In this document: positions 2,297 through 42,121 of the stretch, one piece after another
How positions within the stretch are numbered: position 1 is the stretch's first letter
How the letters are laid out: each line of letters begins with the position of its first letter
Source: Nitrospirales bacterium
GTDB taxonomy: Bacteria > Nitrospirota > Nitrospiria > Nitrospirales > UBA8639
Assembly: GCA_021604105.1 (NCBI GenBank)
Contig: BQIW01000036.1
Coordinates: 1 to 42,247 of the forward strand
Length of the DNA: 42,247 nucleotides
Direction: 5' to 3'
The notes under the pieces: generated by a model
The model's input: the letters and a program-made list of their open reading frames with translations, nothing else
Databases searched by the model: none
What the model was told of the DNA's origin: nothing
Program-made: the position numbers and the translations under genes

Positions 2297-4573
2297 CTAC
2301 TTGGCAATATCCAGTTCCCGTTTTTTGGTGTAGAGAAATCGAATCAGGTCATATTCGAACGGAGAGCCGGTTTGGTAATAGCGAAAATTTAACTGTTGCC
2401 TCGTATTCACCGACCAGGTCAGGGTAAAGGGGGAGCTTCGTTCCAAGCGATTGTTGAAATGCAACGGAGTGTACAAATAGAAAAAACTGGCAGTGTAATC
2501 GGTCAATAGCCCCGCAGTGTCTCTCAGTGATGAAGGTCCCAAAATGGGAAGCACGAGATAGGCGCCGGGGTTCAGTCCGTAATGTCCGAGCGTTTGCCCG
2601 AAATCCTCTGTCTGTTGGGGGATACCTAACGGGGTGGCATGATCAAAAAACCCTCCTAACCCGAATGTGCAATTGATGAGGAAGCGTCCCAATGTATTCA
2701 GCGTTGCTTCTCCATTCAGTTGAAGCATGGCGTTGAACAGATTACGGATGTCGGCGAGGTTCGAGAAGAAATCAGAGACACGTTCTTCGAAAAAATCCGG
2801 CATGACGGCTTCATACCCTTCTACTACAGGCAGAAACACGTATTCATCAAATTGTGCATTAAATTTATACACCCCACGGTTAAACCCTTCGATGGGATCA
2901 TAAACATCCACAAGATATCTGACGTCCGACTGCACGACGTCTTTTACCGACCGTTTTGCCGGTTCAATTATTTCATCTTCAGCGTCCGGAGCGGTGGGGG
3001 TATCTTCCGGATGCACAGGATCAGGAATGATTTCTGAGGCTGTCTCCCGGACTTGTGTGGCCTGGAGATACGCATGAGATTCTTGAAGCTTGCGCTCTAA
3101 GTCCTGGATTTGGCGATCAAGTTGATATTGGAAATCGAGAGAGGGACGGTACGATATTCTCTGGAGAAAAGGAGACGTGGGAAATTCTTCCGGGCCGGTT
3201 GTCTGATGGGTCGGATAGCTAGGAGTCATCGGTGTGGGTGTCGGGAGCATCTGTCCCGGGTGTTGAGCCAGGTTGGCGGGAAGCGGGTTGCGAAAGAAAT
3301 CTACGATATAACCGAGGGTGGCCCGATGGTCCAGGTTGCCGCAATGGCCACCGCGGGGATAAATTTTGGCCCGCGGTCCAAACACCTTCTTGAGATAATC
3401 CAGCTCGCCGTCCCCGAGGATGATATCATCCGCATTATGCAAAAGTCCGACTTTCGGGGCGTGACTGAGGTAATCTTCCAGAGTGGCCAGACTGAGGTTT
3501 GCGATAAGCCCCTGTTCCGTTAACCCCGGGTATCTGGCTTGAAAAAACGGGTAAAACATTTCACGAAAATAATCCAAAAATGTCACACGATTAGACACTT
3601 TAAAATAGTCGGTCACCGAGTCGGTCGCGGACAAGACCAGATTTTTCGGTTTGATATATCCCGAATTGGTCAGGACGTCAGCAGTGAAAACCATATTAGA
3701 GGATGCGATGCGAAACGAGGTGCCAATGAGGGCAGCCAGGGTTCCCTCGGAAGGTTGCCGGTTTTTATAGGCTGAATATAAAAAGTCACCGCTAAAATTC
3801 ACGAATTCCCCATGCTGGTATTCTTCCGAAAAGGCATGAAACACCCTGTCGAAAAAGTCCGGAAATTGATCCGTGCCTCCGGGAATATTGTTAGCCAACA
3901 TGTCATCAAGGATGGAGGTCGAGGTGTATAAGCTCACCGGCGGATTGATCAGCAGAACTTTTGTGAAATGGAAGTCTTCTTGCTCTTCGTCAAGTTGAGA
4001 CACAAATGCGGCCTGGGCTGCGCCCAAACTGTATCCCGTGAGATAAAACTCTGTCACCTCAATTTCGTGTTGAATGTCCAGCCAGACCAATCGCATGACT
4101 CGATACAAATCTTGTGAATCCTCCAGAAGATGACCGGGGATTCCGGTACGGGAGGCTGAGACAATAAAGTCGGGATGGGTAGGCGAAGATAAGGAGAGTA
4201 CATGGAAACCGGCTTGGAAAAAGGCTCGCTGCAGAACCTGCATCTTTTCAGAATTATATCCTGCGCCGGTTCCGGCGATGACAAATATCAATGGCGCGGC
4301 TTGTTCTTGGGGCACCAAAGAATACCGCATATTTTCCCCATACCAGAGAATGTCGGGGAGTGTACGATCTGGAAAGACGGACAATTCACGATCGTCAACC
4401 GGTATTTTGTCGGGAAGGACGGCTCTCAGCTCCGGCGGAGTTCCAATGACTGTCGCCGCATACGGACTGATATTCGGATAATCATAGGGGGTCGATTGCT
4501 CCTGGGCCTGACTCGTAGATAAAAAGAGGGAGGGCAACGATAGCATGACAAAAAGCAAGACACGTGTATACAT
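2297..4573 (-). CDS. Alpha/beta serine hydrolase fused to an MlaA (VacJ) domain
   Basis: A 758-residue two-domain envelope protein. The start ATG at 4573 follows AAAGGAGGTG. A signal peptide (MYTRVLLFVMLSLPSLF, cleavage near SQA-QE) has no lipobox cysteine, unlike classical MlaA, which is a lipoprotein. Residues about 90-430 form an alpha/beta hydrolase: nucleophile elbow GYSLG (Ser182), probable acid at Asp382/383 (HNADDIIL), and His410 in GGHCGNLDH. A Pro-rich, partly coiled linker (440-545) leads to an MlaA domain (555-750) with YDPIEGFNRGVYKFN, NLFNAMLQLNGEA, TFGLGGFFDHATPLG and GPSSLRD. MlaA extracts mislocalised phospholipid from the outer leaflet of the outer membrane. Fusion to a putative esterase/lipase suggests coupled lipid removal and hydrolysis (inference). 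It heads a three-gene leftward operon. Domain calls are strong; the function of the fusion is open. Confidence 0.9.
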   Translation of the reverse strand: MYTRVLLFVMLSLPSLFLSTSQAQEQSTPYDYPNISPYAATVIGTPPELRAVLPDKIPVDDRELSVFPDRTLPDILWYGENMRYSLVPQEQAAPLIFVIAGTGAGYNSEKMQVLQRAFFQAGFHVLSLSSPTHPDFIVSASRTGIPGHLLEDSQDLYRVMRLVWLDIQHEIEVTEFYLTGYSLGAAQAAFVSQLDEEQEDFHFTKVLLINPPVSLYTSTSILDDMLANNIPGGTDQFPDFFDRVFHAFSEEYQHGEFVNFSGDFLYSAYKNRQPSEGTLAALIGTSFRIASSNMVFTADVLTNSGYIKPKNLVLSATDSVTDYFKVSNRVTFLDYFREMFYPFFQARYPGLTEQGLIANLSLATLEDYLSHAPKVGLLHNADDIILGDGELDYLKKVFGPRAKIYPRGGHCGNLDHRATLGYIVDFFRNPLPANLAQHPGQMLPTPTPMTPSYPTHQTTGPEEFPTSPFLQRISYRPSLDFQYQLDRQIQDLERKLQESHAYLQATQVRETASEIIPDPVHPEDTPTAPDAEDEIIEPAKRSVKDVVQSDVRYLVDVYDPIEGFNRGVYKFNAQFDEYVFLPVVEGYEAVMPDFFEERVSDFFSNLADIRNLFNAMLQLNGEATLNTLGRFLINCTFGLGGFFDHATPLGIPQQTEDFGQTLGHYGLNPGAYLVLPILGPSSLRDTAGLLTDYTASFFYLYTPLHFNNRLERSSPFTLTWSVNTRQQLNFRYYQTGSPFEYDLIRFLYTKKRELDIAK

Positions 4574-13469: not shown

Positions 13470-13682
13470 GGGAGTGTTGAATAATAAGGATCCAAGGGTA
13501 AATTTGCGCAGGATGAGATTCCTCATCAAAGGCTCCGGGTCGGTTCAAAAAAGTATGCCATGAGTCTTCCCGAAGGATCCGTCCAGCAAGGCCGCAGCCG
13601 TTTGTACGCGCGGAGCGTAGACTTCGTACGTGAGCACGGGAAAATGGCGAGAACGCCGCTGGCGGCTTTTTTCAACAGACCC
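13470..13682 (-). mobile_element. MITE-like dispersed repeat, copy B
   Basis: A 213-bp copy in the same orientation as copy A, bounded by GGGAGTGTTGAATAATAAGG on the left and the complement of GGGTCTGTTGAAAAAAG on the right. Flanking 5-mers CGAAA and TGAAT match at 3 of 5 positions, so the target duplication is not preserved. It lies in the gap between the isolated DUF5132 gene and the leftward lipoprotein pair. Confidence 0.85.
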
Positions 13683-15398: not shown

Positions 15399-15588
15399 GG
15401 GAGTGTTGAATAATAATAATTTCCAAGGGCATATTAACCCACAGGCACGTTGCATATGAGAGGCCTCAGGGCTGTTCAAAAAAGTTGTCCAGCAGGGCCG
15501 CAGTCATTTTTGCGCGCAGAGCGTACTTCTAGTACGTGAGCACGGAAAAATGGCGAGAACGCCGCTGGCGGCTTTTTTCAACAGCCCC
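15399..15588 (-). mobile_element. MITE-like dispersed repeat, copy C (internally deleted), with 5-bp duplication
   Basis: A 190-bp copy, same orientation as A and B. It lacks about 25 bases present in the others (the part reading CATGCCCTGAGTCTTCCCG). The ends are GGGAGTGTTGAATAATAATA and, on the complement, GGGGCTGTTGAAAAAAG. The 5-mer ACATT occurs immediately outside both ends (15394-15398 and 15589-15593), a perfect target-site duplication, so this copy arrived by transposition. Confidence 0.9.
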
Positions 15589-15696: not shown

Positions 15697-17880
15697 ATGG
15701 AAAAGCCTGTGAGAACCACTCCGCGTTTGAGCCTGTCCGCCAAAATTCTTCTGGGAATGGGATTGGGAATTATTGCCGGAATTTTTTTTGGGGAACTAAT
15801 CGAACCAATCGGTATTGTCGGCCAGGCCTTCGTTCAATTATTGCAAATGGCTGTTCTACCGTTTTTGATGGTCTCTCTAATGACCGGGCTCGGGGGACTG
15901 ACGTATGAAAATGCTATTTCCATGGGCCGGAAGGCAGGTGGAATTTTGGGGATCTTATGGGTCATCACGCTGATCGTGGTGGCTACCCTCCCTCTGACCT
16001 TCCCTCACTGGCCATCGGCGATGTTTTTCAGTCCCTCCTTAGTCGAAGAGACTCAACCGATCGATTTTCTTCAGCTGTACATCCCCGCCAATCCATTTTT
16101 TTCTCTAGCCAATAGTATCGTGCCCGCCGTGGTGGTGTTCAGCATCGTGGTGGGAGTCGCGTTGATTGGCATCGAAAAAAAACAGGCCATGCTTGATGTC
16201 CTGGAGGTCATCATGAAAGCCATGACCAGAGTGACGGGTTTTGTGATGAATTTGGCCCCTGTTGGTGTGTTCGCTATCGCGTCCAGCGCAGCGGGAACCT
16301 TGAATTTTGAAGAATTGGGACGTTTACAGATTTTCCTCGTTTCCCAGATGGTGGCCGCGGTCTTCCTCACGTTCTGGGTTCTGCCGGCCCTGGTAGCCAA
16401 CCTCACTCCGTTGCCCTACGGGAAGATTTTACATTCGGTTCGGGGAGCGCTCGTTACGGCCTTTGCGACTGGTAATTCCTTGATCATTCTTCCCCTGCTG
16501 ACGGAAGGAGGCCGGAAACTGCTCGAAGAAGCGGAATTAGCAGATGACGAAACCACTTCCGCCATCGAGGTCATTGTGCCGACTTCATATACCTTTCCGT
16601 CTTCAGGTTTGTTGCTCAGTCTGGCGTTCGTCCCCTTTGCGGGATGGTTTGCCGGGTCTGCTCTATCTCCGGCGCATTATCCGGGGTTTTTGGTGTCTGG
16701 TCTGGCCAGTTTCTTCGGCGGCACCATGATCGGGATTCCGTTTTTGTTGAACCTATTCCGGATTCCTGCGGACATGTTTCAACTGTTCGTGACCGTGGAT
16801 GTTTTTACCGGTCGGTTGGGGACGATGACGGCCGCTATGCACATGTGGGTGCTTGGCCTTCTGGGAAGTTGTGCCATGGCCGGAAAATTGCGTGTCCAAT
16901 GGGGAAAACTGGCGGGCTATCTGACTGTAAGTATCCTATTGGGCGTCCTGCTTGTCGGAGGGACCCGCCTGTTTTTTACGTATGCGATCGATCCCGAATA
17001 CACCAAATATCAAGCCTTTGTCGAAATGGACTTGAGGTATGAACCGGCAAAGAATACGATTCGGGAGTTAACGCCTGAAGAGGAAACCGTTGCCTTGCCC
17101 GAAGACACGGACCTGGAATCCATACGGCGAAGCGGGGTGCTTCGAGTCGGATTTTTCAAGGATAGTTTGCCGTTTGCCTTCCGGAATGAGACTGGCAAAT
17201 TGGTGGGATTCGACATCGAAATGGCCCACCTGCTTGCCAATGATCTTCAGGTGAATGTTGAATTTGTCCGGCTCCCGGACCGTGGCAAACTGGTGGAATA
17301 TCTCAATGGCAACGCGTGTGACATCGTGATGTCCGGTTCGGCCCTCAGACCGGGAATGACCAATCAGGTGATTTTATCCGAAGTATCCTTAGATTCTACG
17401 ATAGCCTTTGTGGTCAAAGATCACGACAAAGATGTCTTCAGTTCCTGGGAAAAAATTCGCAAACTTGGTGATTTGAAGATCGGAATATCTTCCTATTCAC
17501 AATACTATCAAGCCCTCGCGCGAAATTTATTACCCCAGGCCAGCCTGATACCTCTCAATTCGCCGCGTGAATTTTTCAAGGATGGCGGCAAAGATCTGGA
17601 CGCTCTTCTGTATGTCGCCGAAGCTGGGTCGGCATGGACTTTGATCTACCCTGCCTATACGGTGGCCGTCCCTCTTCCCAACCTCATCAAAATCCCTCTT
17701 GTCTATCCCATGCCAAAAAGTCATCGGAACTTAGCGGAATTTGTGAATGCCTGGCTGAGACTAAAAAAACGGGACGGAACGTTCGAGATGGTTTTTGAAC
17801 ATTGGATATTAGGCAGAGGAGCGAAAAAGAAAGCACCCCGGTGGTCGGTTATCCGTGACGTCCTGCATTGGGTGGATTGA
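15697..17880 (+). CDS. Dicarboxylate/amino-acid:cation symporter fused to a solute-binding domain
   Basis: A 727-residue fusion. Residues about 10-430 are a DAACS (SDF, GltP/DctA-type) symporter with some eight hydrophobic segments plus the re-entrant loops: IGIVGQAFVQLLQMAVLPF near the start, the serine-rich hairpin region SYTFPSSGLLLSL, and FVTVDVFTGRLGTMTAAMHM toward the end. Residues about 470-710 are a family-3 periplasmic binding domain: SGVLRVGFFKDSLPFAF, GFDIEMAHLLANDL, DIVMSGSALRPGM and KIGISSYSQYYQAL. Such binding domains normally serve ABC importers or act as sensors. Tethered to a symporter, this one may deliver substrate to, or gate, the transporter (inference). The ATG at 15697 has no Shine-Dalgarno. 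The gene is convergent with the DUF481 gene, 16 bp away. Confidence 0.9.
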   Translation: MEKPVRTTPRLSLSAKILLGMGLGIIAGIFFGELIEPIGIVGQAFVQLLQMAVLPFLMVSLMTGLGGLTYENAISMGRKAGGILGILWVITLIVVATLPLTFPHWPSAMFFSPSLVEETQPIDFLQLYIPANPFFSLANSIVPAVVVFSIVVGVALIGIEKKQAMLDVLEVIMKAMTRVTGFVMNLAPVGVFAIASSAAGTLNFEELGRLQIFLVSQMVAAVFLTFWVLPALVANLTPLPYGKILHSVRGALVTAFATGNSLIILPLLTEGGRKLLEEAELADDETTSAIEVIVPTSYTFPSSGLLLSLAFVPFAGWFAGSALSPAHYPGFLVSGLASFFGGTMIGIPFLLNLFRIPADMFQLFVTVDVFTGRLGTMTAAMHMWVLGLLGSCAMAGKLRVQWGKLAGYLTVSILLGVLLVGGTRLFFTYAIDPEYTKYQAFVEMDLRYEPAKNTIRELTPEEETVALPEDTDLESIRRSGVLRVGFFKDSLPFAFRNETGKLVGFDIEMAHLLANDLQVNVEFVRLPDRGKLVEYLNGNACDIVMSGSALRPGMTNQVILSEVSLDSTIAFVVKDHDKDVFSSWEKIRKLGDLKIGISSYSQYYQALARNLLPQASLIPLNSPREFFKDGGKDLDALLYVAEAGSAWTLIYPAYTVAVPLPNLIKIPLVYPMPKSHRNLAEFVNAWLRLKKRDGTFEMVFEHWILGRGAKKKAPRWSVIRDVLHWVD

Positions 17881-20262: not shown

Positions 20263-20296
20263 AAAAAAAACGCCCCATGCCAAAGGCATGAGGCGT
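20263..20296 (-). terminator. Rho-independent terminator, leftward
   Basis: Read on the minus strand: a stem AACGCC-x-CATGCC / GGCATG-x-GGCGTT with a 3-base loop, followed by eight T. It faces the leftward genes of the DUF5132/ATPase region, 194 bp beyond the 41-codon membrane-peptide gene, and probably ends that transcript. Confidence 0.8.
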
Positions 20297-20405
20297 TGGA
20301 ATATTTGGGATTCCTGAGTATTTACCCAAAGGGCTAAACGGCTGAAGCATCTAAGACCATAAAAGCCGCCGGCACTTACAAGAATGACGCGAGAATTTCA
20401 GACAG

Positions 20406-20429
20406 AAAGGCCATGGCATCATGGCCTTT
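20406..20429. repeat. Perfect 10-bp inverted repeat
   Basis: AAAGGCCATG and CATGGCCTTT separated by 4 bases, between the 41-codon membrane-peptide gene and the terminator. The stem is strong but no T-run follows on either strand. It may be an RNA stability or processing hairpin in the 3' leader of the leftward transcript. Confidence 0.6.
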
Positions 20430-20489
20430 GACACGGTAGGGTTGAACCGTCCATTGCCTTTCAAGGGCAACAGCCTGACTTCTTCCACT

Positions 20490-20615
20490 TTAGATGGAAA
20501 AGAAATATTTTGAAAGAAGAAGCACCGGGGCTCCCGGCAATCCCGGAATGATAAATAAGACCGCACCCACGACTAACGAAAGCCAACCCATAAAATTATA
20601 AAATGTTTTTTTCAT
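20490..20615 (-). CDS. Small membrane peptide (41 residues)
   Basis: A very short gene with a strong start: AAGGAGGAGTCAAC ahead of the ATG at 20615. The product begins MKKTFYNFMGWLSLVVGAVL and continues FIIPGLPGAPVLLLSKYF, i.e. one hydrophobic helix, a Pro/Gly turn and a short second hydrophobic stretch. The G-W...PG.PG.P pattern resembles the core of PGPGW-type or DUF454-type membrane proteins, which are longer, so this may be a minimal member or a truncated one. It is the last gene before a good leftward terminator. It lies 454 bp after the Gly-rich membrane protein and so may have its own promoter. Confidence 0.65.
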   Translation of the reverse strand: MKKTFYNFMGWLSLVVGAVLFIIPGLPGAPVLLLSKYFFSI

Positions 20616-21069
20616 GTTGACTCCTCCTTTTTGGGGGTGATTGTCGTTCCGGCACCTAATCCACTTCATGTAAAAAGCGCTTGACACAATTCACATTTCT
20701 CTCTTCTCGAGAGAGAACACTCTTTCCCATTCATTCGTGAATTCCCATCTGATGCTCTCCATGGTATCCGAATACCCCATTGGGAATTGCCGTGATGTTC
20801 TCTCACTGTCATTTTTGAATGGCCATTCGCGAATTTCTATCCAATGACCTCATGGAAAAGATGAGCAATGCCAAAGTTTATGGATCAGCAACGTATAGCT
20901 TCGCCAGCAAATGTTCTATTGTGAAGAAGGATAAAGTTTCCTTGAAATTTGGTCTGACGATCGAGGGTAGGGCACACTTGGGTTTAAATAACCCGGAAAA
21001 GATTGCGGTGAAGAGATGCAGTCCGACAGCCATAGCCAACAGTCCTTGGTATTCAAACCGGATAGATTG
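20616..21069. other. Intergenic
   Basis: 454 bp upstream of the small membrane peptide. It contains an imperfect hairpin around CTCGAG (20697-20717). A rightward 86-codon frame (20819-21079) has no ribosome site or family features and overlaps the end of the Gly-rich gene; I do not call it. Confidence 0.4.
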
Positions 21070-21405
21070 TTATAGCTGATCTTTTGAAAGCTTACCTTCT
21101 CTGAACTCGATGGTTTTTTCAATGGCCTCGGTAAAGGTCTCCCCATAGGCAAAAATTCTGTACCCCAGATAGCCGGCGGCGACCCCTGCTACAATTTCAG
21201 CGACACCAACGGTCATGGCTGCAGCCATGCCCAAACCTCCAGTCAAAACGCCACCGACATTGGGGTGTTCGTGAAAGAGCTCCCAAACTCCACCGGTCAG
21301 TGAGGTAATTCCTCCCTCGAGGCCTCCTAACGCTTCTTTGCCACCTGCGGCGATTGAGTCAGTGAATGAATCTGTCTCCATTGTCCTGGGTGCGCGCTTT
21401 GCCAT
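21070..21405 (-). CDS. Gly/Ala-rich membrane protein linked to the DUF5132 cluster
   Basis: A 111-residue protein; AAGGATG precedes the ATG at 21405. A polar N-terminus (MAKRAPRTMETDSFTD) leads to a Gly-rich segment (GGKEALGGLEGGITSLTGG), one long hydrophobic region (VLTGGLGMAAAMTVGVAEIV followed by AGVAAGYLGYRIFAYG) and a charged helix (FTEAIEKTIEFREGKLSKDQ). The overall plan of a Gly-zipper-like helix followed by an amphipathic tail resembles the neighbouring DUF5132 proteins, but the sequence is distinct and I cannot name a family. It lies 138 bp downstream of a DUF5132 gene on the same strand and probably works at the same membrane site. Confidence 0.75.
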   Translation of the reverse strand: MAKRAPRTMETDSFTDSIAAGGKEALGGLEGGITSLTGGVWELFHEHPNVGGVLTGGLGMAAAMTVGVAEIVAGVAAGYLGYRIFAYGETFTEAIEKTIEFREGKLSKDQL

Positions 21406-21543
21406 ATGACATCCTTATAATTGAAAAAATCCATAATCCCAATCCACCGTGAAATTCTAACGGAATCATGGTGGGTTGTAAAATTCTGCGAAGCATTCAA
21501 GCCTTGGGTATCGCTGATCCCGACCTCTCGTGAGGCAATCGGA

Positions 21544-21762
21544 TTATGATGACGATGATGAATGTGTCAGATCCGCCTGAGCCTCACTCACCAAATCCGA
21601 TAAGGTCGCTTCGACTATCAGGCCACCCTTGACGACTCCTTTTACGACAGGGCGTATACTTTGCTGAAGACCGGAAATGATGTAGGGAGATAAATACCCT
21701 ACTGCGGCCGTCGCCGCGAATCCGATCGCGCCCCAGACTAAACCCGCTACCCCTGTCTCCAT
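21544..21762 (-). CDS. DUF5132-type small membrane protein
   Basis: A 72-residue protein with GAGGAGGATGTT ahead of the ATG at 21762. It has an N-terminal membrane helix (GLVWGAIGFAATAAVGYLSP), the family core SIRPVVKGVVKGGLIVEATL, an acidic amphipathic stretch SDLVSEAQADL and a short Ser-rich end (SSSSS) instead of a Lys-rich tail. It lies 41 bp after the next DUF5132 gene (21804-22064), same strand, and both follow the P-type ATPase gene. This is the most divergent of the clear copies. It is probably a partner or scaffold of the ATPase (inference from context). Confidence 0.85.
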   Translation of the reverse strand: METGVAGLVWGAIGFAATAAVGYLSPYIISGLQQSIRPVVKGVVKGGLIVEATLSDLVSEAQADLTHSSSSS

Positions 21763-21803
21763 AACATCCTCCTCTTTTTTAGATCCCTCATGAATCTCAT
21801 GTC

Positions 21804-22064
21804 TTATTCCCGGTCGGGGAAAGATTTCGCTTTCGACGTTTGTTTTTTTGCCTGTTTGACTTCAGATTTCGCCTCGGCGACAAGATCTTGAATGTGTTCC
21901 CCTGACTCAGAAACATATTCTGATGTCGCGGAATAGGCCGCCATTCCGCCCTTAATCATTCCCTTGGTGAGCGCCCGCGCTCCTGAAACCACTCCTGAGA
22001 CGACCGATGGAGCAGCTAACGCTGCAATTGCTCCAACGACCACACCACCAATAATTGGTAACAT
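21804..22064 (-). CDS. DUF5132-type small membrane protein
   Basis: An 86-residue protein; GAAGGG lies about 11 bases before the ATG at 22064. It consists of the Gly/Ala/Val helix LPIIGGVVVGAIAALAAPSV, the core ARALTKGMIKGGMAAYSATS, the acidic amphipathic helix GEHIQDLVAEAKSEVKQ and a basic tail (KKQTSKAKS). It starts 81 bp after the stop of the ATPase gene and is followed at 41 bp by another family member, so the three are likely cotranscribed. No Cys, and His only once, so unlike mycobacterial PacL1 it has no obvious metal-binding tail. Confidence 0.88.
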   Translation of the reverse strand: MLPIIGGVVVGAIAALAAPSVVSGVVSGARALTKGMIKGGMAAYSATSEYVSESGEHIQDLVAEAKSEVKQAKKQTSKAKSFPDRE

Positions 22065-22145
22065 AAAGCATGTTTCCCTTCTTGAACAGATTTGCGTGAA
22101 TACTCTCGAAAAATGCGTTCGGTCACCCTTTTCAATCCCATGGAT

Positions 22146-24749
22146 TTACGCAGGGATGTCGATAAGCTCCCCTTCTAAAACCGGAACGCCTTGTTCCTGT
22201 CCCTGGTTTTCCGAAATCTCATGCTTCACCATGTGCGGGTCCACTACCAGCATAGGCCGTGGTGGCGTGGCCGGCTTTCCCATAATGGGTCGAAGGCCAT
22301 TCAAGGTGGCAATGATAGCTGAACCATTACTCAGGAGGGTCGCGCCGATAGGACCGAGGATTCCAATGCAGGCCAACCCCAACGCAAGAGTATTAGGGAT
22401 AGAAATTATTTTCCAATTCTGATGGATCAGGCTGATGGCTTCACGACTGATATCAATGGCCGCGGGGATCTTCCATAGGCCTCCATGTAATAAGGTCACA
22501 TGGGCCGTATCCTGGGCGACCTGAGTACCGCCCTCCACGGCAATTCCGACATCGGCAAAGGCAAGGGCCGGGGAGTCATTGATCCCATCTCCCACCACCG
22601 CCACCTTATACCCTTGCCGTTGCAGGTCCTTCACCACATCCGCTTTATGACCGGGGAAGACCTCGGCGATATAGCGGTCAATCCCTAAATCCATGGCAAC
22701 GCGTTTCGCGACTTTATCATGATCTCCTGTGAGCATGACGATCTCTTGAATCCCTCGTTCCTTGAGGGCTTGAATGACTTCAGTGGCCTCCGGCCTGATT
22801 GGGTCGGTATAGGACAACAGGCCTGCGAGTTTCCCATCCACGGCCACACAGAGGGGAGAGACGGCGCGATCTTCCATTTCGCTGATGTGCTTTTTGATCT
22901 TTTTTGAAAGAGTGATCCGTCGTTCGGTCATATACCGGTGATTTCCTACCAGCACAATCCTATCGTCCACTATGGATTCCACGCCAAGTCCCAGGGTGTA
23001 GTCTGACGTGGTGCGCTCCGGGATCATGACTCCACGTTCCTGCGCAGCACGGACAATTGCTTGGGCCACAGGATGTGTCAGGCGATTTTCCGCCGCCGCG
23101 GCCAGGGCCAGGACTTCATCGGCTGTGAATGAGCCAAGTGGGCAAATGTCCACCACATCGGGATGTCCCATGGTTAAGGTGCCCGTTTTATCAAAGACCA
23201 CGGCATCCACCTCAGCCAGGGTTTCCATGTGGCGCCCGCCTTTAATCAAAATGCCATGGCGGATTGCTTTGGTCATGGAGCAGAGGACGGTTGTGGGGGC
23301 GGCGATTCTGATTCCGGTCCCGTAGTCCACAATTAACACCGCGGCCGCGCCGGGAATACCGCCGCCAATCACGGCTCCCACCGCGCCAAGGCCAAAACTA
23401 TAGGGAACCAGGTCATTGGCCCATTTGACGGCATAGTTTTGAATTTTGGTCTCTCTGGCCGGAGCTCCTTCAACCAAACGCACAATGCGGGCGGCTTCGG
23501 TTTCATCTCCGATTTGTTCGGCCTGAATGTACAGTTCTCCTTCACGCAGGACTGTGGCGGCATAGACGGGATCACCGAGGTTTTTTTCGACCGGCATGGA
23601 TTCGCCGGTGAGGGTGGCCTGATCCACCAGGGCTTTTCCCGTTTGGACAGTCCCATCGATGGAAATGCGTTCTCCGGGATAGACGACCACGGTTTCTCCT
23701 CGTTGAATCTCACTGACGGGAACCTGCATTGTTTGCCCGTCTCGAATGACCCAAGCCTGAGTCTTTTGGTAGGCCAGGACTTCTTCAATCGCTTTCTTCG
23801 ACTGCAACACGGTCAGATCACGAATATAGTCCGCAATGTTGATTAAAAAGACCATGCCGGTCGCCATGGGAAAGGCGCCTTGTATCGACATCAGAGCGGT
23901 CGCAGAAGCATCAAGCACATCGACATTGAGTTTTCCATCAACTGAGACAGAATGGTAAGCCCGTTTGAGCATGGGCAATGCAGCGGCAAGGAGAAAGGCC
24001 GGGACCGCGACAGGGGCCAGAGGTTCGACGAACAGCGCGATGGCAATCCCGGTGCTGGAATACCACAGTTCCGGGCCCGATTCCTCATCGACGGCATTCT
24101 CTCCCTGTTCCGGTGAGGCCTGTTTTGGCTGGTAGGCCTCAATGTCTTCATGCCGAAGGTCTCGCAGGAACTGACACAGGCCTTCTCCATCCCAAATGGT
24201 TGAGTCAAATAGAACCGTGACGCTATAGCAGCTCGAGTTGACACTGACTTCCTGAATGCCATCCTGGTCTTGTAAAAAAATAGGGAGGGCTTCGGCAAGC
24301 TGGGCACGGAGCCGCATGGCAGGGACACGAAGACGCACTCGTTCCGGAAGTGAGTGGACGACATACGAAGAGGCCATGATATTGGGAACGGTGTCGGGGA
24401 GGGTGGGGGATTGTTCTCTCGAAAGTGGCTCCACTCCATTCCCATTGTTCTGGCCATGCACTGGGTGCCCGAACGAGGCTTCGAGGTGGTCGTTGACAAA
24501 TTCGTTCGGGGAGACCCCAAGGGTCTCAGCTACCGAACGGAAAAACTTCGGATTGGTTCCCTGACATTGGTCATAGTGAAGAATGAGGTGACCGGTGGTT
24601 ACATTCCTTGTGACCTCATCTACTCCTTCCAATTCAGAAAGCTTGAGATCGATTGCTTCCGCAGGGTCAAAATTTTGCTCGCATTCAGACAGTTTTACAC
24701 GAAGACGGCCTGGAATAGCATGAACAATGGAGGCAGAACGAACGGCCAT
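22146..24749 (-). CDS. P1-type cation ATPase with two HMA_2-like domains, lacking CPC
   Basis: An 867-residue pump (ATG at 24749 behind AAAGGA; an upstream TTG at 24821 is less likely). Two HMA_2-like domains lead: IVHAIPGRLRVKL (residues ~6-70) and VVHSLPERVRLRV (~127-200); neither has CxxC. Membrane helices follow (FVEPLAPVAVPAFLLAAALP and others). The catalytic core is complete: actuator TGES (381-384), phosphorylated Asp520 in DKTGT, the heavy-metal-type HP (LTHPVAQAI), GDGINDSP (720-727). Where P1B pumps carry CPC in TM6, this one reads DYGTGIRIAAPT, i.e. Tyr-Gly-Thr. The substrate therefore cannot be predicted; an HMA_2/CtpC-like relationship hints at Mn/Zn or another cation. It is flanked on both sides by DUF5132 genes and a stand-alone HMA_2 gene, all leftward. 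Confidence 0.93.
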   Translation of the reverse strand: MAVRSASIVHAIPGRLRVKLSECEQNFDPAEAIDLKLSELEGVDEVTRNVTTGHLILHYDQCQGTNPKFFRSVAETLGVSPNEFVNDHLEASFGHPVHGQNNGNGVEPLSREQSPTLPDTVPNIMASSYVVHSLPERVRLRVPAMRLRAQLAEALPIFLQDQDGIQEVSVNSSCYSVTVLFDSTIWDGEGLCQFLRDLRHEDIEAYQPKQASPEQGENAVDEESGPELWYSSTGIAIALFVEPLAPVAVPAFLLAAALPMLKRAYHSVSVDGKLNVDVLDASATALMSIQGAFPMATGMVFLINIADYIRDLTVLQSKKAIEEVLAYQKTQAWVIRDGQTMQVPVSEIQRGETVVVYPGERISIDGTVQTGKALVDQATLTGESMPVEKNLGDPVYAATVLREGELYIQAEQIGDETEAARIVRLVEGAPARETKIQNYAVKWANDLVPYSFGLGAVGAVIGGGIPGAAAVLIVDYGTGIRIAAPTTVLCSMTKAIRHGILIKGGRHMETLAEVDAVVFDKTGTLTMGHPDVVDICPLGSFTADEVLALAAAAENRLTHPVAQAIVRAAQERGVMIPERTTSDYTLGLGVESIVDDRIVLVGNHRYMTERRITLSKKIKKHISEMEDRAVSPLCVAVDGKLAGLLSYTDPIRPEATEVIQALKERGIQEIVMLTGDHDKVAKRVAMDLGIDRYIAEVFPGHKADVVKDLQRQGYKVAVVGDGINDSPALAFADVGIAVEGGTQVAQDTAHVTLLHGGLWKIPAAIDISREAISLIHQNWKIISIPNTLALGLACIGILGPIGATLLSNGSAIIATLNGLRPIMGKPATPPRPMLVVDPHMVKHEISENQGQEQGVPVLEGELIDIPA

Positions 24750-24878
24750 GGAATTAAGTCCTTTGAAATGAAATGAGGGTTGGGGGAATACATCTGCGCA
24801 TATGAAAACCCGTCTGTACAATCGAGTCTGATTCTGTTGTGTTACTCACCGGTCTTACCATGCCCACTATCGGCAAAT

Positions 24879-25271
24879 TTACGATTTGCCTCTGGCTTTC
24901 TTGGAAGATTTCTCCGGTTTGGCTTTTCCCTTGATTGAAGGACTGACTTTGCGACCAGTTTTTAAAGTTTTGAGGCGACCTTTGGCAGAACGGGCATCTT
25001 TTTTTTTCAATGGTCTGACGTCAGAGGAGGGTAAACCCAGGCAGGAAGAAACTGTCGGATGAAGTGCCAGAACTTCTAAAACTGTGGGATCGTAGTAAAT
25101 GAGAAGGCTTGTTGTCTTGGGATTGGTTTCAAGATGGGTAATCCCCGAAATTTTATGAAGCCGGCGTTGTATTTCATCAGCATGGGCCATATTGTTTTTC
25201 AGGTGGCGCAGCTTCAGCCGCACTCGACCGGGCAACGCATGCACCACCTCAATGTCTTTCTCGTTGGTCAT
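24879..25271 (-). CDS. Stand-alone HMA_2-like domain protein with Lys-rich tail
   Basis: A 130-residue protein; GAAGGA precedes the ATG at 25271. Residues ~5-70 repeat the fold found at the ATPase N-terminus: IEVVHALPGRVRLKLRHLK, a helix ADEIQRRLHKISGI and the strand KTTSLLIYYDPTV. No CxxC is present. The last 45 residues are very basic (KKKDARSAKGRLKTLKTGRK and on), which could bind lipid head groups, nucleic acid, or the acidic helices of the DUF5132 proteins (inference). It lies 129 bp upstream of the ATPase start and 29 bp after the second DUF5132-like gene, so it is probably in the same transcript. It may act as an adaptor between scaffold and pump. Confidence 0.87.
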   Translation of the reverse strand: MTNEKDIEVVHALPGRVRLKLRHLKNNMAHADEIQRRLHKISGITHLETNPKTTSLLIYYDPTVLEVLALHPTVSSCLGLPSSDVRPLKKKDARSAKGRLKTLKTGRKVSPSIKGKAKPEKSSKKARGKS

Positions 25272-25300
25272 TGGTCTTCCTTCGCGTCTCCGGATTTTCC

Positions 25301-25606
25301 TCAGGCTTTTTTATGTTGATCTTTGGTTTTTCCAGATTTACCTTCTCTGCTTTTTGCTTTGGTTTCTTCAGGGGCACTGTCAGGGGAGGATGTTTTCACC
25401 GCTTCCGAGCGTGCCTCTTCCACGAGATCATTCAATTGCTTTCCAAGCCCCGATGCCTTTTCTGAAACCGTTTCATATACGACGAGCCCGGCTTTCACGA
25501 GCTCTTTGACCAAAGGACGGAACGCTCTGGAGATTCCCCCGGGACCGCTCTCGGTTTGTGAGTTGCCCGTTGAATCAGGATCTATTTTTTTATCATTCTG
25601 AGACAT
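25301..25606 (-). CDS. DUF5132-like protein without membrane helix
   Basis: A 101-residue protein starting at 25606 behind GGGCGGA. It carries the family core (AFRPLVKELVKAGLVVYETV) and acidic helix (LGKQLNDLVEEARSEAV). In place of the N-terminal Gly-zipper helix it has a polar, disordered leader (MSQNDKKIDPDSTGNSQTES), and it ends in a long Lys/Glu-rich tail (KSREGKSGKTKDQHKKA). It therefore looks like a soluble or peripherally bound version of its neighbours. It lies 18 bp after the DUF5132 gene 25625-25864 and 29 bp before the HMA_2 gene. A regulatory or competing partner of the membrane forms is one possibility. Confidence 0.83.
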   Translation of the reverse strand: MSQNDKKIDPDSTGNSQTESGPGGISRAFRPLVKELVKAGLVVYETVSEKASGLGKQLNDLVEEARSEAVKTSSPDSAPEETKAKSREGKSGKTKDQHKKA

Positions 25607-25624
25607 ATTCCGCCCTAATTTGTG

Positions 25625-25864
25625 TTATTTTGCAGGTTTGGCTTTCGCTGGATGGGCAATTTCTGCTTTTGCCTCGGCGACAATGTCATTGAATTGTTCT
25701 CCGGTCTCAGCAACCATCTCTGAAACGGCGGTATAGGCGACAATTCCTCCCTTGAGAACTTCTTTCGCCAAGGGACGAACCATCTCTCCTATTCCCGAAA
25801 TGACCGAAGGGGCTGCCACTGCCGCCACAGCTCCCACAACAGCACCACCAATTACAGCTTCCAT
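25625..25864 (-). CDS. DUF5132-type small membrane protein
   Basis: A 79-residue protein; AAGGAGG lies 8 bases ahead of the ATG at 25864 (an in-frame TTG two codons upstream is less well placed). Gly/Ala/Val helix MEAVIGGAVVGAVAAVAAPS, core VRPLAKEVLKGGIVAYTAVS, acidic helix TGEQFNDIVAEAKAEI and a Lys/Ala/Pro tail (HPAKAKPAK). It is nearly identical in its first 70 residues to the isolated copy at 12941-13195. It heads the leftward DUF5132/HMA_2/ATPase run. Upstream is an AT-rich segment with a perfect inverted repeat (25953-25979) that may control the run. Confidence 0.9.
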   Translation of the reverse strand: MEAVIGGAVVGAVAAVAAPSVISGIGEMVRPLAKEVLKGGIVAYTAVSEMVAETGEQFNDIVAEAKAEIAHPAKAKPAK

Positions 25865-25952
25865 TTTCAAGTCCTCCTTCCAAAACTATAGTAGTTGTTC
25901 ACAATTCTTCCACAGAGTCTCACTTATAAATGTTCATAAATTTTTTTTCAAG

Positions 25953-26092: not shown

Positions 26093-26815
26093 CTAATGCA
26101 GGTCAAAGTCATGGCGATTTCCCTCCCGAACCCAGTGGGTATCCCCAGGCCAGATGTATTCCATGCCCTGGGGACCATGGATCTGGATGCCCGTCAGGAC
26201 GGCATAGTCATTATGAAGGGGGTCAACGGTTAAGTGGATCATTCTTTCCAGCTCCTCACGAATCACCTCATACGCAATTTTTGTGAGGCTCAGCAGATCC
26301 GGAACATCACCATAGGAGAGTTTGCGAAACAGGTGTTGTTTCAGGAGGCTTTGCTCAATGTCATCAAGGTCGATTCCCAAAGAGACGCATCGATTGGCCA
26401 GCTCTGCCTGAAACCCGTACAACGCCCCACAGGCATGGGACGGTTGCAAACGCCCCGGACGATCATGGCGACCAATTTCGCCGTGGAAATCTATGCCAAT
26501 GTGTGGGAGGGCAAAATACACATATCGTTCGCGCCCATCTTCATTCGGCGCATGGTGTTGCGCCGCTGAAAATCCGGTCTTTCCCAGAAAGAGCATGCCG
26601 CCCAGACTGGAAAAAATAAAGGCTTCTCCCCAGGTTTTCTTTACTTCCTCAACAAGGGGCAACGTCAGTTCATCCCGGCACACGCTGATGAAGGCAATGG
26701 TGTTCTCGGCGCGGAAGCCCTCAGCCTGCAAAAGGTTGTATGAGCGTTTGACAAACTCACCTTGTGGCATTGCCTCCGGAAAGTGTGTAGAGAGGACTGT
26801 TTCGAAGCTTGCCAT
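26093..26815 (-). CDS. LCIB-type (theta) carbonic-anhydrase-like protein
   Basis: A 240-residue protein that follows the fold signature of the algal LCIB/LCIC family, now described as theta-type zinc carbonic anhydrases (CO2/HCO3- interconversion). Visible signature elements: SVCRDELT (Cys46, Asp48), the Gly-rich block SSLGGMLFLGKTGFSAAQHH, PHIGIDFHGEIGRHDRPG (His105) and HACGALYGFQ (Cys129). The Cys...His...Cys order matches the zinc ligands of the family; assigning individual residues is my inference. No signal peptide, so it is cytoplasmic. The start is the ATG at 26815, 12 bp after the Ca2+/H+ antiporter, so the two are probably cotranscribed. In an autotroph it could supply bicarbonate or CO2 to carbon fixation. 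Confidence in family is good; activity is untested. Confidence 0.8.
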   Translation of the reverse strand: MASFETVLSTHFPEAMPQGEFVKRSYNLLQAEGFRAENTIAFISVCRDELTLPLVEEVKKTWGEAFIFSSLGGMLFLGKTGFSAAQHHAPNEDGRERYVYFALPHIGIDFHGEIGRHDRPGRLQPSHACGALYGFQAELANRCVSLGIDLDDIEQSLLKQHLFRKLSYGDVPDLLSLTKIAYEVIREELERMIHLTVDPLHNDYAVLTGIQIHGPQGMEYIWPGDTHWVREGNRHDFDLH

Positions 26816-33042: not shown

Positions 33043-34222
33043 GTGCAGATACATTGTTTTCGACTCCAAGAAAAGGGCTTGCTTCAACTCACCGAGGAAA
33101 GACCTAAGGCATCATGGCTTGGTGATGGAATCGTCCGTTTATTGGACATTGATACTCCCGATTGTACCAGGCTGTCTGAAGTGCTTAGCCCCTTGAATCT
33201 GGATGCCGCTTTGCTGGACAAGGTCGAGTCCCAAGCCGGGGGTGTCTGTGTTGAAACCTTCTCTCACGCCTTGTTTCTTAGGTCTGTTGAAAAAAGCCGC
33301 CAGCGGCGTTCTCGCCATTTTCCCGTGCTCACGTACTCAGCGTACGTTCCGCGCGTACAAACAGCTGCGGCCTTGCTGGACGGACCCTTCGGGAAGACTC
33401 AGGGCATGCTTTTTTGAACCGACCCGGAGCCTTTGATGAGTTATCTCATCCTGCGCAAATTTGCCTTTGAACATCCTTATTATTCAACACTCCCTTCTTC
33501 GATTCCCACGCCCGGCCTTACATGATTTTAAGGATCCCTATATTACCGCGATCTGTGTGAGAGAAACCCTTATTGTCCTTCATCATGAACTCTATTTGCC
33601 CCCGGACCAAATTCTCGCGAGGATTGATCGGTTCGGCGGGATCGGAACCAGCACCATCACGGACCTGCTTCTCCATCTTCTGTTATTGGGCATTAATCGT
33701 GATATCGAATTGTATCAGCAAACTCGACAAATGATTGCCGAATTGTCAAATGACTTTGACCAGTGTCTCAACACCGATGTCCTCAATGATATTCAGAATC
33801 TGACCAATCACGTGAGCCGTCTCCAATCAACGACCGAAGATCGTCTTATTCTTATGGGAAGCCTACTCACGTTGAAATCTTCTTTATTGGATTTGCATGA
33901 AGTACGATTGTATTTTAAAGAAGCCATGAACGAATTAAACCAGATGCAGCGTTGGCTGGAACGTTTGGAGGGTCGGCTCAACGGATTATCTCAACACTAC
34001 AATTTGTCCCTCCAGAATAGCACGAACAACCGGCTTTGAATCCTGACGGTGATTTCGGCCATCTTTATGCCACTGACACTTATTGCCGGCATTTACGGCA
34101 TGAATTTCCCCAATATGCCGGAACTTCAGATGCCCTACGGATATTTTATCCTTCTTGGTCTCATGGCCGTGCTTGGCAGAGGATTGGGAATATTTTTCTA
34201 TGTACGGGGCTGGTTTGATTAA
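33043..34222 (+). pseudogene. corA: CorA-type Mg2+ transporter, broken by a MITE and a stop codon
   Basis: Conceptual start GTG 33043 behind GGAAGGG. The N-terminal part (EKGLLQLTEERPKASWLGDG ... LLDKVESQAG) runs to SHALFL at 33279, then a 215-bp dispersed repeat interrupts. The gene resumes at LRFPRPALHDFKDPYITAIC, continues through the long stalk helices (RLILMGSLLTLKSSLLDLHE) and ends with [20 protein letters not shown] and a short final helix; GMN is the CorA selectivity motif. Removing the repeat and one 5-bp duplication gives exactly 320 codons (319 residues; E. coli CorA has 316). A second lesion, TGA at 34037-34039 (apparently CGA-to-TGA, NNRL-stop-ILTVI), would cut off both membrane helices. 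The gene is dead twice over. Confidence 0.9.
33280..33494 (+). mobile_element. MITE-like dispersed repeat, copy D, inside corA, with 5-bp duplication
   Basis: A 215-bp full-length copy in the opposite orientation to A-C. It starts AGGTCTGTTGAAAAAAG and ends in the complement of GGGAGTGTTGAATAATAAGG. TTCTT flanks it on both sides (33275-33279 and 33495-33499). Excision of the element plus one TTCTT fuses ...GCC TTG TTT CTT to CGA TTC CCA in frame, which fixes the element boundaries and the 5-bp duplication. Confidence 0.95.
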
Positions 34223-36426: not shown

Positions 36427-36641
36427 GGGTCTGTTGAAAAAAGCCGCCAGCGGCGTTCTCGCCATTTTTCCGTGCTCACGTACTACGCATACGCTCCGCG
36501 CGTCAAAACGGCTGCGGCCTTGCTGGACGGACCCTTCGGGAAGACTCAGGGCGTGCTTTTTTGAACGGACCCGGAGCCATTGATGAGTAAACTCATCCTG
36601 GGCAAATTTGCCCTTGAAGATCTTTACTATTTAACACTCCC
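36427..36641 (+). mobile_element. MITE-like dispersed repeat, copy E, with 5-bp duplication
   Basis: A 215-bp full-length copy in the same orientation as D. It begins GGGTCTGTTGAAAAAAG and ends in the complement of a slightly diverged GGGAGTGTTAAATAGTAAAG. ACAGA flanks it on both sides (36422-36426 and 36642-36646), a perfect 5-bp target duplication. It lies between genes. Confidence 0.93.
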
Positions 36642-42001: not shown

Positions 42002-42121
42002 GGGTCTGTTGAAAAAAGCCACCAGCGGCGTTCTCGCCATTTTCCCGTGCTCACGTACTCAGCGTACGCTCCGCGCGTCAAAACGGCTTTGGCCTTGCTG
42101 GACGGACCCTTCGGGAAGACT
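42002..42121 (+). mobile_element. MITE-like dispersed repeat, copy F (truncated)
   Basis: Matches the first ~120 bases of copies D and E (GGGTCTGTTGAAAAAAGCC through the palindromes to CTTCGGGAAGACT) and then departs completely. The second terminal repeat is missing, so this is a one-ended remnant and no target duplication can be tested. The last ~125 bases of the window after it contain nothing I recognise. Confidence 0.85.

Follow-up and report, generated by a model that had tools for sequence, protein, structure and literature searches.

A DUF5132, HMA_2 and P-type ATPase operon of a Nitrospirales bacterium as a candidate PacL-kind assembly for cation export

We analyzed a stretch of 42,247 nucleotides from a Nitrospirales bacterium (GenBank assembly GCA_021604105.1, contig BQIW01000036.1, positions 1 to 42,247 of the forward strand; hereafter, the window), which carries an operon for small proteins of the DUF5132 type (D1 to D4), a stand-alone HMA_2 protein and a P-type ATPase. 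DUF5132 was named nowhere in the literature searched. Nitrospira sp. HKST-UBA08, a sister species with the same gene set in an unchanged order, was used to calculate the ratio of nonsynonymous to synonymous substitution rates (dN/dS). The features of the operon and the related genes of the window are as follows.

25923..25951 (-), promoter-like site TTGAAA-N17-TATAAG, 5' of D1; position and spacing kept in HKST-UBA08 and in a third species, NPIRA06
25625..25864 (-), D1, DUF5132 protein, 79 aa; PF17195 44.4 bits (cut-off 25); dN/dS 0.17
25301..25606 (-), D2, DUF5132-like protein, 101 aa, without membrane helix; PF17195 23.3 bits, just below the cut-off; dN/dS 0.25
24879..25271 (-), stand-alone HMA_2 protein, 130 aa, Lys-rich tail, without CxxC; PF19991 65 bits; dN/dS 0.32
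22146..24749 (-), P-type ATPase, 867 aa, two N-terminal HMA_2 domains; TIGR01525 514 bits; P1B-type fold; dN/dS 0.11
21804..22064 (-), D3, DUF5132 protein, 86 aa; PF17195 29.0 bits; 77% identity in HKST-UBA08
21544..21762 (-), D4, short DUF5132-like protein, 72 aa; PF17195 14.4 bits (weak), sequence similar; 87% identity in HKST-UBA08
21070..21405 (-), Gly-rich membrane protein, 111 aa; no Pfam family; dN/dS 0.18
20490..20615 (-), 41-aa membrane peptide; resembles the DUF454 N-terminus (E 5.6e-6); dN/dS 0.03
20269..20297 (-), intrinsic terminator; stem kept in HKST-UBA08 with paired changes on both sides
26093..26815 (-), LCIB-type beta-carbonic anhydrase, upstream neighbor of D1; PF18599 188 bits
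26828..27895 (-), CAX-type Ca2+/H+ antiporter, upstream neighbor; TIGR00378 362 bits
12941..13195 (+), D5, solitary fifth DUF5132 protein, 84 aa; PF17195 38.3 bits; 76% identical to D1; dN/dS 0.16

The first-pass annotation of this DNA described eight consecutive leftward genes between 25864 and 20490, closed by a terminator. All eight minus-strand open reading frames (ORFs) are present and start with ATG, the gene order is maintained in the sister species, the six scored genes are under purifying selection (dN/dS of at most 0.33, with the 41-aa peptide showing the strongest constraint), and the terminator is found at 20297-20269. D3 and D4 were left out of the dN/dS calculations, because the compared stretch overran their stop codons; both ORFs are intact in HKST-UBA08. 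The genes are consecutive with respect to strand and order, with spacers of 18 to 138 bp, but a 454-bp non-coding gap lies 5' of the 41-aa gene. A plus-strand ORF in this gap (20819-21079) was dropped, as it is broken in the sister species. The count of four DUF5132-type proteins holds above the Pfam cut-off for D1 and D3, but not for D2 and D4. D5, the antiporter and the carbonic anhydrase were absent from that annotation. The promoter-like site, common to all three species, was not picked up by a consensus promoter scan for the region upstream of D1, and Rfam families had no match in 19.5-27.9 kb. D1 consists of a Gly/Ala membrane helix, a basic stretch and an acidic Glu/Ala helix, and its AlphaFold model is a single helix spanning residues 2-70 (predicted local distance difference test, pLDDT, 69).

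In five relatives' loci (L043, L045, L138, L142 and L143), the pump adjoins larger HMA_2 proteins, and the C-terminal membrane stretch of these is matched by the 41-aa peptide; one of the scanned proteins has an HMA_2 domain followed by a DUF454-type stretch, such that parts encoded by separate genes in the window are fused in relatives. These matches place the peptide within the module. The Gly-rich protein may instead go together with the carbonic anhydrase, because its homologs adjoin the carbonic anhydrase gene in two relatives (L043 and L045); it is also present in HKST-UBA08. The carbonic anhydrase gene itself adjoins the module or is near it in L043, L045, L046 and L048. In the sister species, an extra tiny membrane ORF (26 aa, L046:14438-14518) lies between the 41-aa gene and the terminator, and the frame of this ORF is shortened by a stop codon in the window (20269-20490, minus strand).

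That the parts of this operon belong together had been conjectured, and a lack of conserved co-occurrence of DUF5132 with HMA_2 ATPases would have spoken against it; no such lack was seen. Among 148 Nitrospirota genomes, DUF5132 was detected in 20 and HMA_2 in 24, and all 20 DUF5132 genomes have HMA_2 (Fisher p = 4e-21). HMA_2 occurs in four of the 128 genomes without DUF5132, and three of these four have a DUF5132-like gene, under the Pfam cut-off, near the HMA_2 gene. In the fetched Nitrospirota loci, DUF5132 is accompanied by HMA_2 genes and an ATPase, with the sole exception of one contig (L034), in which no ATPase was found. A DUF5132 profile scan of named genomes, blind to neighbors, yielded 80 loci from Nitrospirota, Cyanobacteria, delta-proteobacterial groups, Burkholderiales and relatives, and Acidobacteria. 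For the 43 loci with full flanks (about 9 kb on each side; five phyla), gene-neighborhood analysis detected a P-type ATPase in 39, and an ATPase or an HMA_2 protein in 41. In 25 of these 39 loci, the pump belongs to the same P1B-like class as that of the window, which lacks the CPC motif. DUF5132 loci of other lineages contain a different pump of ~1040 aa that also carries an N-terminal HMA_2 domain. Two further genes recur at these loci: an S-adenosylmethionine (SAM) synthetase gene beside the calcium-type ~1040-aa ATPase (e.g., L139:3543-4748; 32 loci in all), and a gene for a ~230-aa protein with Gly/Ala-rich amphipathic repeats and no Pfam family, located between HMA_2 and the ATPase (e.g., L027:7654-8343; 29 loci in all).

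The window pump has all catalytic motifs of P-type ATPases (DKTGT, TGES, HP and GDGxND). In the phylogenetic tree, it forms one clade with its relatives (support 100/100), which is sister to CtpC together with a CPC-bearing Nitrospirota pump (98/95), apart from CopA and ZntA. Comparison to folds in the PDB gives cadmium, copper and zinc pumps as the best matches, which confirms a P1B-type fold but is hardly informative about the ion. Heavy-metal pumps have CPC in transmembrane helix 4 (TM4), commonly but not universally with a CxxC-bearing N-terminal domain, and HMA_2 is named for heavy metals. At the place where CPC is expected, the window pump has the signature VDYGTGIRIAAPT (VDYGTGIR; general form D-x-x-T-G-[IV]-R), with no CPC, SPC or APC. 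Across 40 relatives, D475, G479, R481 and P485 of TM4 are invariant and T478 is 97% conserved; N786, N808, S810 and N817 are nearly invariant, and Asn, Ser and Thr make up the remaining conserved polar positions. CxxC occurs in one of 322 HMA_2 domains and in none of those encoded in the window. The marks of P2A pumps (PEGLP, and Asn, Glu and Asp ligands in TM5/TM6) are absent from the window pump and present in the ~1040-aa class.

The genomic context also bears on the ion. The exact TM4 signature was found in seven of the 148 Nitrospirota genomes, and in six of these seven a CAX gene lies at most 4 kb from the pump, in three families (P = 1e-7, counted by lineage), whereas CAX occurs at all in only 22 of the 148 genomes. 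This Ca2+/H+ antiporter is a separate protein; it neighbors the window module and five others in Nitrospirota, and was not found near cyanobacterial modules. The nearest solved relatives of the ~1040-aa pump are the P2A Ca2+-ATPases SPCA1 and LMCA1; this pump differs from that of the window and, unlike SPCA1 and LMCA1, has an N-terminal HMA_2 domain. The missing CxxC, the TM4 signature in place of CPC, the linkage to CAX, and the SPCA1/LMCA1-like pumps at other DUF5132 loci together point to a hard cation, calcium first, as the ion of the window pump, without being decisive, and make the "heavy metal" label of this pump doubtful.

We compared DUF5132 to PacL (DUF1490), the small proteins that accompany the CtpC-type ATPases of mycobacteria. 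PacL and CtpC-type genes were taken from Rhodococcus, Pseudonocardia and Mycobacterium plasmids; an N-terminal CtpC fragment served as bait only, and the evidence comes from the retrieved records. The two families have a common plan, that is, a Gly-bearing membrane helix, basic residues, and a Glu/Ala helix that terminates with D-[IV]-V-A-E-A-[KR]. When 9,916 ORFs were ranked with the DUF1490 profile, 24 of the first 25 places not taken by PacL went to DUF5132-type proteins; given that these ORFs are mutually related, a formal probability of this ranking is not meaningful. Shuffled PacLs seldom score in the profile comparison, and common composition may contribute to the signal. A natural bridge is found at another Nitrospirota locus (L137:1254-4617), where a CPC-bearing CtpC-like pump is accompanied by a protein that matches both DUF1490 (5e-4) and DUF5132 (0.03). 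Based on the profile ranking and the bridge sequence, DUF5132 and DUF1490 are probably distant homologs, although this is not proven. PF07371 (DUF1490) had no match among the window proteins at E<=1.

Positions E53, E56, D60, E64 and E68 form a stripe on one helix face and are acidic in 96-100% of 116 DUF5132 proteins; in the profile alignment, D60 and E64 fall on D67 and E71 of PacL. In PacL2, replacement of E55, E59 and E71 with Ala destabilizes the pump, E71A destabilizes CtpG, and the protein contacts the N-terminal domain of the pump (PMC13043812). The Glu/Ala region of PacL is required for pump binding, whereas the metal-binding tail is required only at high zinc (PMC9374683, PMC13043812). 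The conserved acidic helix of DUF5132 is the counterpart of this Glu/Ala region. The membrane helix of DUF5132 has conserved glycines G11 (97%) and G7 (79%) that form GxxxG; the small-residue contact motif of PacL is GXXG. The tails of DUF5132 are variable and acidic on average, with two or more His near the end in one of 112 proteins; the Lys-rich tails in the window are a local feature and not a trait of the family.

The resemblance to the PacL1-CtpC and PacL2-CtpG metal efflux platforms of Mycobacterium tuberculosis extends over the small size of the protein, the Gly-bearing membrane helix, the acidic cytoplasmic Glu/Ala helix and the adjacent P-type ATPase. The C-terminal His/Asp metal-binding motif is complete in PacL1, half present in PacL2, and missing from DUF5132. 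Unlike the PacL systems, DUF5132 is multi-copy, comes with a separate HMA_2 protein, occurs in several phyla, and is associated with a pump without CPC. Another comparison is with the DUF6110 "PacL-like" proteins, candidate scaffolds without the metal-binding motif that occur beside P1B6 ATPases (PMC9374683), and which in both respects are like the DUF5132 proteins of the window. By Pfam assignment, DUF6110 and DUF5132 are different families; no DUF6110 match was seen among the window proteins in the Pfam scan, and in the literature searched DUF6110 is mentioned only in the two PacL papers. The architectural parallel to PacL drawn in the first-pass annotation is stronger than had been claimed, considering that the pump clade is sister to CtpC, that the N-terminal domains of CtpC match HMA_2 just below the cut-off (1.7e-5 and 2.3e-6), and that the acidic helix and probable homology can be added. 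Conversely, its suggestion of a different mode of action, drawn from tails that are rich in Lys and not in His/Asp, is not supported, as the tails vary and the acidic helix is conserved.

In the mechanism that we infer, the DUF5132 proteins would be small membrane scaffolds whose Gly-rich helices associate with one another within the bilayer. On the cytoplasmic face, their acidic Glu/Ala helix would dock on basic HMA_2 domains, both those in the ATPase and that of the stand-alone HMA_2 protein, and thereby hold and cluster the pump. A docking pair is suggested by the mean charges, -6 for the acidic-helix region of DUF5132 compared to +3 for HMA_2 domains, 291 of 322 of which have the motif GRx[RKH]. 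The pump, along with the neighboring CAX where present, would export a hard divalent cation, with calcium as the likeliest candidate and manganese as the main alternative; additional docking and membrane components are probably supplied by the stand-alone HMA_2 protein and the 41-aa peptide. We give an even chance to this interpretation of the operon as a PacL-kind cation-export assembly, in which DUF5132 scaffolds hold and cluster a pump for a hard divalent cation, most likely calcium. Several observations weigh against it: the direct hhalign comparison of DUF5132 and DUF1490 is not significant (probability 5-7%); no CAX lies near the pump in N. moscoviensis, in genome G108 or at the cyanobacterial loci; the invariant arginine of TM4 (R481) is odd for a cation site; and the model of the pump is only moderate (pLDDT 69.5).

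The same scaffold could instead serve an ordinary exporter of soft metals (zinc, cadmium or copper), as the family name suggests. The heavy-metal P1B score of 514 bits, the zinc exporter CtpC as sister clade, and the cadmium, copper and zinc pumps among the best folds would agree with this explanation. It is nevertheless rather unlikely, because CPC is replaced by YGT, FAT or LCT behind an invariant Asp, conserved Cys, His and Met are lacking from the site, HMA_2 has no CxxC, CAX is linked, and no metal-responsive regulator was noticed beside the pump. We are similarly doubtful that the DUF5132 proteins, like KdpF or phospholamban, serve the pump one-to-one as regulatory or assembly subunits, without clustering it. 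Tiny single-helix proteins encoded beside a pump, present in one copy in 66 of the 80 loci, are what this explanation would predict; an operon with several distinct copies, among them one that lacks a membrane helix, and a further copy at a distance are not, and the plan is close to that of PacL, which clusters pumps (PMC13043812).

The assumption that DUF5132 and HMA_2 constitute a general membrane module unrelated to ion export (e.g., in membrane stress or lipid binding), which ATPases merely share, appears improbable. It is true that 12 of the 80 loci have DUF5132 and HMA_2 proteins with no ATPase in reach, and that one locus class adds SAM synthetase and the repeat-rich 230-aa protein. However, most of the ATPase-less loci are cut by contig ends, as opposed to the 39 of 43 fully flanked loci with an ATPase, and HMA_2 is built into the pumps themselves. 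Returning to the PacL-kind assembly, a broader version of it has a fair but less than even chance: DUF5132 and HMA_2 could be a general PacL-related scaffold-and-dock pair, joined to two unrelated classes of P-type pumps (CPC-less P1B-like and P2A calcium) and to CAX, forming calcium effluxosomes in at least five phyla.

PacL scaffolds that cluster pumps have been described from Actinobacteria, and DUF6110 proteins are their possible relatives in other groups. The present results tie a further unnamed family, from Nitrospirota, Cyanobacteria, Desulfobacterota, Pseudomonadota and Acidobacteriota, to the PacL plan, such that scaffolds of this pump-clustering kind may have a much wider distribution than has been recognized. 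They also suggest that HMA_2, despite its heavy-metal name, is a docking domain, and mark out a group of pumps whose ion site has the unusual signature D-x-x-T-G-[IV]-R. Direct tests of the docking surface, the ion and the clustering become feasible.

Other features of the window should be noted. A 29-bp intergenic repeat is present in six copies (411-439, 13638-13666, 15544-15572, 33296-33324, 36443-36471 and 42018-42046), and its first 26 bases have about 132 copies in the genome (both strands, up to three mismatches), indicative of an element like the repetitive extragenic palindromic (REP) sequences. A 758-aa protein (2300-4573, minus strand) has a C-terminal MlaA lipoprotein domain, preceded by a long region that matches no Pfam family and, judged by reading only, presumably resembles an alpha/beta hydrolase. 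Finally, a 727-aa protein (15697-17877, plus strand) joins a sodium:dicarboxylate symporter domain to a family-3 solute-binding domain, an unusual fusion.

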